Of a DNA stretch of 64,000 nt, positions 52,680-63,573 are shown one piece after another. Source of the stretch: Anoplopoma fimbria (lineage: Eukaryota; Chordata; Actinopteri; Perciformes; Anoplopomatidae); NCBI RefSeq assembly GCF_027596085.1, contig NC_072456.1, forward strand, positions 14,894,744 to 14,958,743, in the 5' to 3' direction. The translations under genes were made by a program, and so were the position numbers. A model generated the notes under the pieces. It was not told the DNA's origin, did not search any database, and saw only the letters and a program-made list of their open reading frames with translations. Within the stretch, counting starts at the first letter, position 1. Each line of letters starts with the position of its first letter.

Positions 52680-53071
52680 ACACCTGTCTGCTAGTTTTGT
52701 TGTGGTGCTGTTGAACTGTCAGATTTTTTCCCCCGGAAAACTACCAGTGTGGGCTACATCAGGCATGTAAAAATGTGCAAAGAACAAATGCATCTTCACA
52801 CATTATTTTTTTTTTTAAATGTTTAACCCTAGTATTACAGGAAAATATGAGAGCAGCAATACGTGTAGGATGTTTATGCTCCTGTTTTTTACATTACATT
52901 ACATTACAGTCATTTAGCAGACGCTTTTATCCAAAGCGACTTACAATAAGTGTATTCCACATAGGTATTCAAGAGAACTACTAGTCACCAGAAGTCATAA
53001 GTGCATCTCCTTTCTTAAACAAGCATCTAAGAGCATAAACCAGAGCAAAAGTATAGTGCAGAATCAAACTA

Positions 53072-56282: not shown

Positions 56283-57077
56283 ATGAATGTCTCAGTCGTG
56301 CCTTTTGCCAACAACACCCCACTCTGCTACTCCATAAACAACCCTCCATTCAAGATCAAATATACCGTCGCATCGGCTTACTTCTCATCCATCTTCACCG
56401 CTTTGGGTCTCACCTCCAATCTCATCGCCTTTGTGGTTCTCATCAAGTCCTTCCAGCGGACACATAGCCGCTCACGCTCTTTTCTGATCTTCCTGGGTGG
56501 CCTGGTGGTCACCGACTTCATGGGTCTTCTGGTCACCGGCTCCATCGTGATCTCCTTCCATGTTACGCACTTTAATTGGCGCCGGTTGGATCCAAACTGC
56601 CACTTCTGCAACTTTATGGGAATGTCCATGGTCTTCTACGGACTGTGTCCGCTGATGCTAGGTGCCGCCATGGCCATGGAGCGCTTCATTGGCATCAACT
56701 GTCCATTTGCACGCTTCACCAGCATGCCAAAGAGCCGGACAGTCTCCATGGTGCTGATGGTGTGGTTGATCGCCGGCTGCATAGCTTTGCTGCCCCTAAC
56801 AGGCATAGGAAGCTACCACATGCAGATTCCTGGCTCCTGGTGTTTTTTCAACATCGGCTCTGAGGGAAACAACCTGGCCTTCTCCCTGCTCTTCTCTTTG
56901 GTCGGGTTGATGAGCATTGCTGTGTCATTTTTGCTGAACACGGTGAGCGTTGTGACCCTGATCAGGGTGTGCTGTGGACAGGATAGTACCCAGCGTCGAC
57001 GAGACCACGAAATAGAGATGATGGTCCAGCTCATCCTCATCATGGTCATTGCTTCTATCTGCTGGTGCCCCCTACTG
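56283..57077 (+). CDS. tbxa2r: tbxa2r coding exon 1 (N-terminus to TM6)
   Basis: 265 complete codons ending ICWCPLL at a phase-0 donor (ctg/gtgagt). The intron between TM6 and TM7 is the position shared by prostanoid receptor genes. Confidence 0.95.
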
Positions 57078-60000
57078 GTGAGTTTGCCTCTTTGAAATAA
57101 GTAAGCCTTATATATAGTATGTGCATGTAATATGTTCAGGACTAGTTTTATGACAAACGATAAAGTCGCAATTATAATTAAAATGTTCAACTAGTAAACG
57201 TACGTAGGAGTGTAGAAATCTGAATCCAGGGTTCCTTGAGTTGCATTAACCAACTTCACACCAAGATAATGATAGCATTAAAGGTGCTGTCAGCATTTCT
57301 AATCCAATACACCCTTTGTCAAATTAAACAAAAATACTCACTGTTCGTTAAGTGTCTTTTCTGTGTGCGCTGAAAAAATATCACGTTTCCATCCACAGTC
57401 CTGGCTCTGTCAATTGGTAATAAACAAAGTGGTGCTGAACCCAGTCACACAACATTATTCCAGTCAATCAGCAACAGGGTGCAGTCATGCTCGTCCGCAG
57501 GACAGGAAAAAGGCCATGGATGTACGAAGAGAGAGGCAGTTGGGGACAAGAGGGACTTTAAATATATTAGTAGTATTTGTGTGGATGTTGAGTTAAAACA
57601 TCAACCATCTTTCTCCAGAATCGCTGACTCTCCCTTGAAGGACCAAACACAATTATTTATTTTTTAAAAAACAGCTAAAAGTGTGTGACCTGATAGACTA
57701 AACATTAACCAAAAGTAACAGCGAAACATGATCACTTATAAGACGGTAGATGGGAAGATAAGAATACATTCAGTTATAATATTGCAAAGTACCTTAACTA
57801 ATAGTGTCTACCAAATAATGGGTTTCTCCGGGAAAACCATGATCAAACCATATAAAGGCATCACAAAGTCCTAAGCTCCTTTTCTCTGCTCCTTCTCTAT
57901 ATGCTTCATTTCACCTTAGCAATTCAGCTTCCTAACTAGTTGATCTTAAAGCTTTCTGGTGTTACCCTGGATCAGAGAGCCCCTTAATGCCTTATTTGAA
58001 ATCACACTCTCAGGTTTAGAGCATGGGTGAAATCATTGCCTTTTAAGGTAAAACTTGGATTTGCTTTGTAGCTCTAGTTATTGGTTGTGTGAACTATAAC
58101 ATAACATGGGTTGAAAACTTACCCATGGGTTAGCTAAAACATTTTTGGGAACAAAGTTAAGGTTTAGGTAGAATTTTAACCCAACTGTCCATTGTGAACA
58201 TCTGTACAGCCGGCTTCCTGATTCTTTTGACTTTGACCAACTGCACTTGCCGTGGGCAATCATGGGGTTTCTGTATAATATAATTAGCGACATTATGGTG
58301 GTAGTTAACCAGGGATAACTGTCCTCTTGTTCAAAGCCTTTGTGAATATGTGATATATTTTCACCTATTTCTGCGATCTCAGCAACTGCTGTCTTTAATA
58401 AGCTTTTAACATAGCAAATGGGACAAGCTACAAAAATACAACTCAAGTTTTAATAGACTGCTCTTTTCCTGAAATATTTTTTCTAACTCTTCTTCTGGAG
58501 GATTACTATGAAGCTAATTACTGTAGAAGCAACATGAATAATTTACTCCAACCTGCTTAATCTCCATCCATGAAACTCTTCTTTGTCCAACTGTGTTAAT
58601 AAAAACAGGTTGAGGGGGACGGAGTGTCTTTTGATTTGTAAAATCAAACCCCCTTTGTGTGGATTTTTTTTGGTGTACCTTTCAGTTTTGAAAGGTGTTA
58701 TGGTAGTCATTTTTTAAAAAGGAGATTATCCTGGTGAAGCGGATGCCAAGCATTGCCATCTACCACATTTTGATGCTACCACTAGTTGCCAACTTCTATT
58801 AAACATAGAAGATGTTTAATAGAACATTCTATTGAGCATATCAGAGTAAGGAACAGAAGAGCTGAAGCTGCCTGACTGGAGCATATATATTTTTGCAGTC
58901 CTGTCTAACCTCAGTTGTGTGACACCCTGCACAGATATATATTCTGAAGAGCTCGGTGACTGCTGATCCTGTAAGAGATGATAATGTTTTGTTCTACATA
59001 CGAATGGTCACCTGCAATCAGATATTTGACCCCTGGATATACATCATGTGTCAAGTGTCCAGACTAAGGCGAGTAAAAAGTTAAACAAAAGCATTGAAAG
59101 ATTGTTACAATAACACAGCATCCCCATAGTAACTGCTCACCCACATCATCATTTTGGGCTGTGGTTGGCTGGCTGCCTCAGCGTGTCCTAAACATCTGCC
59201 AATGCAACTCATGGATGGACTGTACAATGCAGTTTACTCGATGTCTTGTAGCTTTCATACCATTACCAAAAAGCTCAAAGTTTTCATTGGGAGCATTCAT
59301 AGAGCCAGTGTCTCATCTGTTTTTTGCTGCTGCTATGCACCCTTCATTCCATTCCCAGTCGGTTAACAAACAGTTCACTTAAATAGTTCCAGCCCTTTGT
59401 CATGTTTGTTTATTATCCTTGCGCCTGCCATCATCCTGAAACTAACACACATGGTCCAAAACTTCAACGCTTAACTATCTGCAGATTGTTGTTTTGTTTT
59501 AGATACGGAAACATTTCTTTGAATCAGAGCTGCAGAAATCTTTACAGATAAGGGTTAAACATCAGGAAAGTCACTCAGGCTCAGTTGATGTAATGCTCCT
59601 GAAATATGCGCTGAATATTGCCTTCTGTGGAAGTGGAACTTCAACTAGGATAACTTACACCCTGGAAAACATAGACACTTTGCTTGTTTCAGTCTCTAGA
59701 GCACCTCTGCCTCTGAGAATAGTTTGCCTAAACTAAAACTTCTGTTTTGCACTTCATCTCAACACTTGCATGCAACATTTGTTACACAATAAAGTGGATT
59801 TATATAACTGTTTACTTGCACTGCTTGGATGTAAACCACATTAGAACTTTATTTTATTTTTTGGCACCAGCTGAATTCGGAACAGAGACAACAATAAGCA
59901 AATTTATCATTCGTTAAGGAGCTTGTTGGCATGTTTTCCCCCTGTAAGAGATTGTTCGGCCAGTACTAATAAGGCTATGCCTAACATAAAATGCTGCAGT

Positions 60001-60677
60001 TTAAGTGCAGCAGGGGGGATAATTGTGTTGCAACAGTCACTGCTTCTGGATGGCCACGCCGAAATTAGTCTATCCATTACCTCACTAGACTTAACACGTA
60101 TGTGTGTGTCTGTTTGCATTTGTAATATTAACCAATCTCATCTTTTACCTTTTGTTTCTCCTTTCTAATATCTCTTTCCCAATCTTTTCAACTATAATTT
60201 GATACTTGTCTCCCCAACTACTTTTTTACTTCCTCCCTTTAAACTTCCCATTCTATCTCATCCTTCCCCCACTCCTTTCCTCGATCATTTCTTTCCTCTC
60301 TTTTCTTCTTCTTTCCCTCATCCTTATCCCCACCTCCATCCTTCCACCAATAGGTCTTTATTGCACAAACTGTGCTGTCCGGTGAAGGCCTTAAGATCAA
60401 ATACCTACTCCTATGGCTACGATTCGCAACCTGGAACCAGATCCTGGATCCGTGGGTTTACATCCTGTTTCGAAGGGCAGTTTTTAAGAGAATCTACCCC
60501 CGCCTCAACTGGTCTCGCGGCTCCATCATGACCCTGTACCCGTCTGTCAGAGACACCGTCCGGAGGTTCACACGCTCTTCACTTGGGAGCACCCTGGATC
60601 CAGATGAAACAGGAGAGCCGCGGAATTCAAATGTAACACCCCCATCATCTTTGAAGCCACCAGCTCCTTCTCCATGA
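56283..60677 (+). CDS. tbxa2r: Thromboxane A2 receptor (prostanoid TP receptor), canonical form
   Basis: Join of 56283-57077 and 60354-60677, 372 residues (human alpha form 343, from memory). It is a class A prostanoid GPCR. The N-terminus has N-glycosylation sites NVS (Asn2) and NNT (Asn10). TM2 contains [13 protein letters not shown]. The predicted disulfide is Cys106 with Cys187 in PGSWCF, the prostanoid ECL2 hallmark. ERF 133-135 replaces DRY. TM7 has Arg288 (the carboxylate-binding arginine of this family), NQILDPWVY 293-301, then helix 8 FRRAVFKR and a Ser/Thr/Pro-rich tail. The closest match by eye is TP ([15 protein letters not shown] TM5, YLxLRxATWNQ). The family couples to Gq/G13 to raise Ca2+ in thrombocytes and vessels. 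The start was chosen at an ATG with A at -3; a longer frame from 56076 includes intron-like sequence. An alternative TM7 exon lies in the intron. Confidence 0.95.
57078..58934 (+). other. tbxa2r: tbxa2r intron, first part
   Basis: 1.9 kb between TM6 and the alternative TM7 exon, AT-rich. A perfect 13-bp hairpin lies at 58794-58824. No further GPCR-like exon is found in it. Confidence 0.7.
58935..59084 (+). CDS. tbxa2r: Alternative tbxa2r terminal exon encoding a second TM7
   Basis: After acceptor ccctgcacag, phase 0, it reads [20 protein letters not shown] then [29 protein letters not shown] and TAA. Spliced to 57077 it keeps the frame and aligns without gaps to the canonical TM7 exon: Ile268, Arg288, Thr291, Asn293-Gln-Ile, Asp297-Pro-Trp, Tyr301 and Arg311 match, and most other positions are conservative. 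A branch-like tctaac lies about 30 nt upstream. The product would have 314 residues with Cys for Trp292, no FRRA in helix 8, and a tail of about 12 residues. AATAAA follows at 59788. It is an inferred mutually exclusive last exon. A decayed duplicate exon is the alternative, but the intact frame, acceptor and stop argue against that. Confidence 0.75.
   Translation: MYILKSSVTADPVRDDNVLFYIRMVTCNQIFDPWIYIMCQVSRLRRVKS
59085..60353 (+). other. tbxa2r: Alternative-exon 3' UTR and remaining tbxa2r intron
   Basis: If the alternative exon is used, its UTR would run to about 59810 after AATAAA at 59788. The last 150 nt form the polypyrimidine tract of the canonical TM7 exon. Confidence 0.5.
59788..59793 (+). 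promoter_or_regulatory. Poly(A) signal AATAAA for the alternative tbxa2r exon
   Basis: AATAAA followed by gtggatttatataactgttt, 704 nt after the alternative stop and 561 nt before the canonical TM7 exon. Confidence 0.5.
60354..60677 (+). CDS. tbxa2r: tbxa2r coding exon 2 (TM7 and C-tail)
   Basis: Acceptor cttccaccaatag after a 150-nt pyrimidine-rich tract, phase 0. It begins [20 protein letters not shown] and continues [16 protein letters not shown], with a 107-residue total and a TGA stop. Confidence 0.95.
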
Positions 60678-63278: not shown

Positions 63279-63573
63279 TGCGGCTGTGGCGTAGTGGAGA
63301 GCAAGGTAGTTCTCCAATCAGAGGGTCGGTGGTTCGATACCCGGCTTCGGCAGTCGATGTGTCCTTGGGCAAGACACTTAACCCCAAGTTGCTCCCGAAG
63401 GCTTGCCATCGGTGTGGACTGGATGTTGCATGAATGTTAGTTAGAGTCTGATGGTGGCACCTTGCATGGTAGCCTGTCATCAGTGTGTGAATGGGTGAAT
63501 GATATGTAATATACTACTGACTGTAAGTCGCTTTGGATAAAAGCGTCTGCTAAATGACTGTAATGTAATGTAA
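63279..63573 (+). mobile_element. tRNA-derived SINE with a LINE-type 3' tail
   Basis: tRNA-like head with A box tggcgtagtgga (63287-63298) and B box ggttcgatacc (63331-63341). The body contains cttgggcaagacacttaacc. The tail gtaagtcgctttggataaaa...gactg is followed by taatg repeats. It is flanked by tgtagcc at 63272-63278 and 63574-63580, a candidate 7-bp target duplication. Confidence 0.85.

Follow-up and report, generated by a model that had tools for sequence, protein, structure and literature searches.

The stretch of sablefish (Anoplopoma fimbria) DNA analysed here, 64,000 nucleotides of contig NC_072456.1 (the window), contains tbxa2r, the gene for the thromboxane A2 (TP) receptor. The canonical receptor is encoded by an exon for transmembrane helices 1 to 6 (TM1-TM6), which ends at a GT donor (57078-57079), and a last exon that supplies TM7, helix 8 and the C-terminal tail; the closest PDB match to the two exons joined is the human TP receptor (E 6e-100). 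The intron between them holds an alternative TM7 exon, with a phase-0 frame of 49 codons (58935-59081) closed by a TAA (59082-59084), and a TCTAAC about 25-30 bases upstream of its CAG acceptor (58932-58934) could be the branch point. A first-pass annotation of this DNA had reported the exon with this acceptor, phase and stop, all of which we confirm. We put at roughly 0.75 the probability that teleost tbxa2r has in this element a second, homologous TM7 exon, and that the TP receptor made with it is complete, with seven helices, but differs in TM7 and helix 8.

One database protein from the sablefish (thromboxane A2 receptor isoform X2, 368 amino acids; P0001 in our list) corresponds letter for letter to the first exon, positions 58935-59068 and the last exon from 60354 onward, read in the +1 frame (Table 1). 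The junction, exact in this gene model, is a GC-AG intron; splicing passes over the stop that the alternative exon carries at 59082, and a 58-residue tail encoded in the shifted frame closes the protein, whereas the first-pass annotation, which missed both the GC donor (59069-59070) and a GT (59080-59081) in the alternative exon, had expected almost no C-tail. GC-AG introns have been linked to alternative splicing (PMC2490688), and the fish donor is seemingly conserved among teleosts.

Table 1. Features of the tbxa2r locus, in positions of the window
Feature	Positions	Strand	Remarks
tbxa2r TM1-TM6 coding exon (265 amino acids)	56283..57077	+	common to all forms
CAG acceptor of alternative exon	58932..58934	+	
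Alternative TM7 exon as in the sablefish isoform	58935..59068	+	134 nucleotides; 44 full codons and 2 bases
GC donor, ACTAAG/GCGAGTAAAA (ACTAAG/GCGAGT)	59069..59070	+	
Extension RRVKS and TAA stop	59069..59084	+	read if the GC donor is not spliced; form given by the first-pass annotation
Second possible donor, GT	59080..59081	+	splicing here would put the last exon in the +2 frame
Canonical last exon, canonical frame	60354..60677	+	TM7, helix 8 and C-tail; 107 amino acids and TGA
Last exon in +1 frame	60354..60531	+	58-residue tail SLLHKLCC...; TGA at 60529-60531
Proposed dual-coded stretch	60354..60375	+	canonical reading VFIAQTV, +1 reading SLLHKLC
UnaL2 LINE (long interspersed nuclear element) 3' element	63510..63563	+	Rfam RF00436; flanks tbxa2r
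UnaL2 LINE 3' element	52904..52957	-	Rfam RF00436; flanks tbxa2r, on the opposite strand to the other

An open frame of this length says little by itself, as 19 of 180 AG-preceded frames in the same intron stay open for at least 49 codons. Such frames are common there; the case for the exon rests on homology and on relatives. Against the canonical TM7 exon, 13 of 47 residues are identical (E 4.5e-8, tblastn in the 64-kilobase window) and 31 of 47 score as positives (BLASTP), which bears out the earlier description of 13 identities with mostly conservative changes elsewhere. Pfam gave nothing above its cut-off for the alternative exon alone, tRNA and Rfam scans gave nothing at its position, and a repeat search found no notable repeat connecting it with the rest of the locus.

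Relatives were collected by three protein searches aimed at the alternative exon. The first, with the exon part of the joined protein as query, gave 34 matches (34 candidates), 32 with a name and a fish species, 31 of these named as TP receptor; the second and third started from the Polymixia and loach copies. The 121 proteins fetched comprise 86 with the alternative exon and 35 with the canonical one, a ratio that reflects the aim of the searches and is not a frequency. Alternative exons occur in at least 81 named teleost species (82 named proteins plus four unnamed), a lower bound since 120 of the 284 matches of the third search were listed. Carriers include the European eel, loach and other cypriniforms, catfishes, characins, electric fishes, pike, charr, smelt, cod relatives, Polymixia, Centroberyx, and many percomorphs.

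A few of these proteins differ at the start of the alternative exon. In Sander lucioperca (P0021) and Micropterus salmoides (P0032) the third extracellular loop is longer in frame, with 42 and 48 residues, respectively, from the exon start through DPWIYI, versus 37 in 74 of the 85 proteins with a recognised exon start. In P0025, a protein of 177 amino acids, the alternative exon is preceded by a sequence ending in WHPAQ, apparently intronic sequence running into the exon and not a TM1-TM6 exon; the sablefish intron frame likewise reads HPAQ directly before the alternative exon.

Among the proteins examined, mean pairwise identity is 62% for alternative exons, 81% for canonical exons and 39% between the sets, which differ in species cover and, as products of a protein search, include intact copies only. 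We built a tree from 33 rows: 14 of the 86 alternative exons, 12 canonical TP exons (10 of the 35, plus sablefish and human), and 7 other prostanoid-receptor-like exons of the sablefish. In it the alternative exons form one group (support 100/99), and alternative and canonical TP exons lie together, apart from all seven others (96/96, over few columns). These results give two homologous tandem TM7 exons; the homology is secure, and their most probable origin is a single duplication of tbxa2r's own TM7 exon. As carriers range from eel to percomorphs, that duplication would be older than the split between eels and clupeocephalans, in line with the first-pass proposal of an old duplication kept intact.

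The exon could instead have been captured from another prostanoid receptor gene, since in the sablefish genome it is nearer to the TM7 exon of a prostanoid-receptor-like gene (L002; 40% identity, E 1e-4) than to its canonical partner (28%, E 0.005). However, the tree, which includes older teleost copies, separates TP exons of both kinds from all seven others, and the eel alternative copy has a mean identity of 51% to the 35 canonical exons. We judge that the tree outweighs a similarity confined to the sablefish and consider capture very unlikely. An approximately unbiased test did not reject holding alternative and other exons together (p 0.49), but it asks only whether the canonical exons form one group and says little about origin. 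That the exon is a piece of a nested gene was rejected because the window contains no second TM1-TM6 exon: tblastn of the first exon returned its self match, then three matches at E >=2.9.

The 74 ungapped alternative exons of the 86 were tabulated by residue, with human numbering from an alignment with human TP. Arg295, Asn300, Gln301, Pro305, Trp306, Tyr308, Ile309, and Arg317 are invariant (74/74), and Asp304 is present in 73; the Arg of position 7.40 and the DPxxY motif are thereby found with R, P and Y in all 74 and D in 73. The invariance of Arg317 may be owed to the splice site. Column entropies of the alternative exons and of the 35 canonical exons are correlated (Spearman 0.62). Joined to the first exon, the sablefish exon places Arg288, Thr291, NQI 293-295, DPW 297-299, and Tyr301 where the first-pass annotation had them; among the 46 proteins aligned for structure prediction (see below), R288, N293, Q294, D297, P298, W299, and Y301 are invariant, and T291 and I295 nearly so.

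Other positions have changed. The place of Arg312 (Arg 8.47) is held by Gln in 63 of 74 alternative exons and by Arg in one, and on the gate side 7.37 is mostly Phe, 7.41 Met or Leu, 7.44 mostly Cys, and 7.48 Phe, Cys or Leu. These data support the earlier view that TM7 of the TP receptor is exchanged and FRRA lost in this form. The replacement of Trp by Cys in TWNQIL, also put forward earlier, is not exclusive to it, as 9 of 74 alternative exons have Trp and 7 of 35 canonical exons have Cys. The canonical exons with Cys at this place are those of gadiforms (P0072, P0076, P0080, P0087) together with P0081, P0090, and P0099.

Downstream of the alternative TM7, the 86 proteins end in several ways, judged from the protein except in the sablefish, where the junction is exact in the DNA. 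The GC junction fits 53, a second donor 11 bases further on combined with the +2 frame of the last exon fits 10, 21 continue to a stop codon inside or beyond the alternative exon, and two fit none of these: P0073, which was removed from an initial 54 GC-type proteins when its tail proved not to follow the canonical exon, and P0094, which is unclassified. As far as the proteins can tell, the alternative exon acts in 63 of the 86 as a frame-shifting cassette followed by canonical-exon sequence in another frame, for the sablefish exactly so; a mutually exclusive last exon, as first envisaged, is not supported for these. Termination at the exon's own stop, the ending given by the first-pass annotation, is of the kind found in the 21 read-through proteins but is not that of the sablefish database isoform. 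Both a read-through (P0017) and a GC-type (P0035) form are listed for Scatophagus argus. An AATAAA at 59788 is the sole AATAAA or ATTAAA between the 59084 stop and the last exon, and the sablefish +2 frame closes after nine codons of the last exon, being longer in other fishes. The DNA would also allow a third GT (59073) to be joined in frame, giving two TM7 segments, but none of the 86 listed proteins reads both exons as TM7.

Beyond the GC site, the 31 proteins not spliced there continue with Arg-Val (30) or Arg-Leu (1), as AG/GCG.GT predicts; this start defines the class, P0073 and P0094 are unclear, and no other listed protein deviates. With Leuciscus (P0047) and Electrophorus (P0079) among the fishes whose residues match the donor sequence, an early origin of the GC donor is probable, as read from protein.

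Splicing noise or a gene-model artefact, that is, a decaying duplicate taken up by prediction programs, might account for endings that vary between listed proteins and for the lower identity among alternative than among canonical exons. We regard this as improbable: the same exon with its invariant TM7 residues recurs in 81 named teleost species, though only intact copies could be found, and the shifted stop lies inside the last exon, a gene structure for which ordinary nonsense-mediated decay would not be expected.

AlphaFold, given an alignment of 46 of the 86 proteins (P0001 and 45 relatives), predicts seven transmembrane helices for P0001, with a mean predicted local distance difference test (pLDDT) of 71.5. 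A helix 8 of 11 residues (307-317) runs across the splice junction, and disorder begins at 321. The closest fold matches of this form are the human TP structures 9gg5, 8xjn, and 6iiu, so a TP receptor is the best structural match both to the canonical join, by sequence, and to the alternative form, by fold. As a control, a second-donor form (P0010) was predicted with no separate helix right after TM7 and with disorder from 342, but this model is weak (mean pLDDT 66, other four models 44-48, 26 sequences) and lends weak support only. The end of the predicted helix 8 in P0001 coincides with the end of a conserved +1 stretch and with that of the shortest natural tails. Amphipathicity of this helix was not used as evidence, its P value being marginal and the comparison with the canonical helix 8 depending on register.

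The conserved stretch is best seen in the codons of the last exon. Each +1 codon has as its middle base the wobble base of a canonical codon, so that the shifted tails disclose canonical third bases (58 of 58 right on the sablefish DNA). Across the 53 GC-type proteins, T occupies the third position of Ile3 in 51, of Phe2 in 50 and of Thr6 in 43, versus 1 of 40 at Ile30, 2 of 37 at Ile37 and 1 of 41 at Thr26 elsewhere in the same exon. Ile30 and Ile37 together end in C in 74 of 77; places less strictly Ile end in T in 5 of 41 (15), 1 of 21 (47) and 2 of 20 (58), and Phe24 and Phe39 are mixed (20/41 and 13/37). The same contrasts appear when each of 28 groups (orders or families, one being an unnamed protein) is counted once: T at Ile3 in 26/28 versus 0/25 at Ile30 and 1/22 at Ile37, at Phe2 in 25/28 versus 10/25 and 10/22 at the other Phe places, and at Thr6 in 25/28 versus 0/25. 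At Phe2 and Ile3 the human gene probably has codons ending in C. Fisher p values for these comparisons, between groups that are not fully independent, range from 4e-13 to 1e-3; binomial sums on Ile3, which treated the groups as independent, were set aside.

The T-ending codons preserve the +1 residues (S/C)-L-L-(H/R/Q)-(K/R)-L-C, and a Cys occurs within tail residues 6-10 in 50 of 53 tails. Past about residue 8 the tails are variable; eight of the 53 end after 7 residues (seven pipefishes or seahorses and one mullet) and four after 14. Non-triplet alternative splicing, in which the choice of splice site shifts the frame of a shared downstream sequence, is a described phenomenon, and higher conservation of wobble positions is a published sign of dual coding (PMC13247117). 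The same bases are here read in two frames by database isoforms, as models (P0001 and the canonical frame), and the third-base bias points to dual coding of helix 8. The catalogue of dual coding in that paper covers worm and human, and the text found of it names neither TBXA2R nor a G-protein-coupled receptor (GPCR); the fish stretch would form the helix 8 of a receptor.

The bias could serve splicing instead, as a signal for acceptor recognition or as an enhancer of splice choice. The biased codons all lie at most 18 bases from the acceptor, and the 10 second-donor proteins, in which the +1 frame is unread, still have T at the Phe2 and Ile3 places (9/10 each), although these species may make the GC-spliced form as well. 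On the other side, sites that are free to vary within a +1 residue type do vary, whereas those that set Leu vary little: the third base of Gln5 is A in 33, G in 19 and another base in one (Lys or Arg in +1), and that of Ala4 is A in 36, G in 13 and another in four (mostly His, Gln or Arg in +1). Moreover, the conserved stretch stops at the predicted end of helix 8. A splicing signal is a possible but, in our judgement, less likely cause of the pattern. The first-pass interpretation is partly supported. On this evidence the case is more interesting than was stated: use of an old alternative TM7 exon shifts the frame of the last exon, and the shifted frame shows signs of selection for helix 8.

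Several observations weigh against a second TP receptor with its own helix 8. The isoforms are database models, named as in the database records. The GC join is not the sole form, as the 21 read-through and 10 second-donor proteins attest, though some of these may be errors of gene prediction. The tree has 51 columns, unsettled bootstraps and three long branches (among the other prostanoid-type exons). Confidence in helix 8 is moderate (pLDDT block means of 67 and 56), the new helix exceeds shuffled versions in amphipathicity by a narrow margin (P 0.049), and an open +1 tail over its whole length is only mildly unusual in the sablefish (P 0.027, 0.013 and 0.037 in three codon models). Exceptions to the third-base pattern occur at Ile3 in 2 of 28 groups and at Phe2 in 3 of 28; at Thr6 it is broken in cypriniforms (4/5), catfishes (5/5), and Brachyhypopomus, where exceptions mostly carry Pro or Gln, residues unfit for the hydrophobic face of a helix. 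In addition, the query of the third search extended two residues (C, L) into the tail, which may slightly have favoured Leu where Phe2 is read, but it did not cover Ile3 or Thr6.

A 2026 structural study of TP indicates what the kept and changed residues may do (PMC13039517). Arg295 holds the agonist carboxylate and seals the gap between TM1 and TM7, and R295F lowers potency about 200-fold; Gln301 may be a switch; N300A is inactive and N300L active; and D304N is a patient variant with reduced binding. Val296, Trp299, Ile292, and Leu303 contribute to the lining of a cholesterol cavity close to the gate between TM1 and TM7, Arg312 touches TM7 in the active state, and a contact between Asp238 and Arg317 is broken upon activation (PMC13039517).

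We propose that the GC-AG donor joins the alternative exon to the canonical last exon out of frame, which is the commonest form among the listed proteins, and that the opening codons of the latter, taken in the +1 frame, complete a helix 8 ending in Cys. One short stretch would then encode the start of TM7 in the canonical receptor and helix 8 in the alternative one. Because the residues for agonist contact and switching (Arg 7.40, Asn 7.45, Gln 7.46, Tyr 7.53) remain, thromboxane-like ligands should still be bound. Ligand entry, G-protein coupling, and desensitisation would be expected to differ, because the TM1/TM7 gate positions that face the membrane and the active-state contact of helix 8 (Arg 8.47 to Gln) have been altered and the usual C-tail is missing. 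Our best inference is that the alternative receptor, where expressed, would still sense thromboxane-like ligands and would differ in coupling, trafficking, and desensitisation.

Human TP alpha and TP beta are likewise receptor forms made from one gene by splicing, and differ in the C-tail after a common TM7. The segment in the rat EP1 variant of Okuda-Ashitaka (1996) is reportedly not a homologous duplicate exon, whereas the fish exon is a homologous TM7 with motifs intact, found from eel to percomorphs. That variant is also a prostanoid receptor splice form in which a TM VII-like segment replaces the normal end, and it has no C-terminal tail (PMC7509579), unlike the fish form, which mostly carries a second-frame tail. 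Splicing likewise affects TM7 of the human FP variant hFPS, which is six-transmembrane according to a title in the reference list of PMC3477067; in the fish receptor TM7 is exchanged for a homologous one. Among the papers listed by our literature search, with subscription journals mostly outside it, none described a fish TP receptor with a swapped TM7, although the alternative isoforms themselves are already in public protein databases.

Since the rat EP1 variant, the nearest published analogue, is inhibitory, a dominant-negative role is a serious rival: the alternative form may not signal alone but reduce how active the normal receptor is or how much of it reaches the surface. The rat variant inhibited EP1 calcium and EP4 cyclic AMP signals (PMC7509579), rat H3 forms in which foreign sequence follows TM6 fail to bind ligand and reduce surface expression of the normal form (PMC11274711), and the loss of Arg 8.47 (Gln in 63 of 74) removes an active-state helix-8 contact (PMC13039517). 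A pure decoy would not, however, need ligand and switch residues that are invariant in all 74 exons, and a helix 8 is predicted in the alternative form. We hold an inhibitory role to be a tentative alternative, and one that is compatible with, rather than exclusive of, a receptor that signals in its own right.

The fullest version of our proposal, for and against which we see the odds as about even, is that one gene has provided a second TP receptor since before the eel split by means of a frame-shifting TM7 cassette with a conserved GC donor and a helix 8 in a second frame. The added Cys of that helix could be palmitoylated, the shared stretch would be selected both as the start of TM7 and as helix 8, and the two receptors would share one ligand core but have a different membrane gate, coupling, and desensitisation. 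If this is correct, studies of TP in exon-bearing fishes have a second, so far unexamined product of this gene to reckon with, and the natural swap of TM7 and helix 8, with the ligand core untouched and retained among teleosts, is a ready experiment on what these elements do in prostanoid receptor coupling and desensitisation. A frame-shifting splice, of a kind sometimes deemed noise, would make a conserved structured element, and synonymous sites in a receptor exon would be constrained by a second protein.

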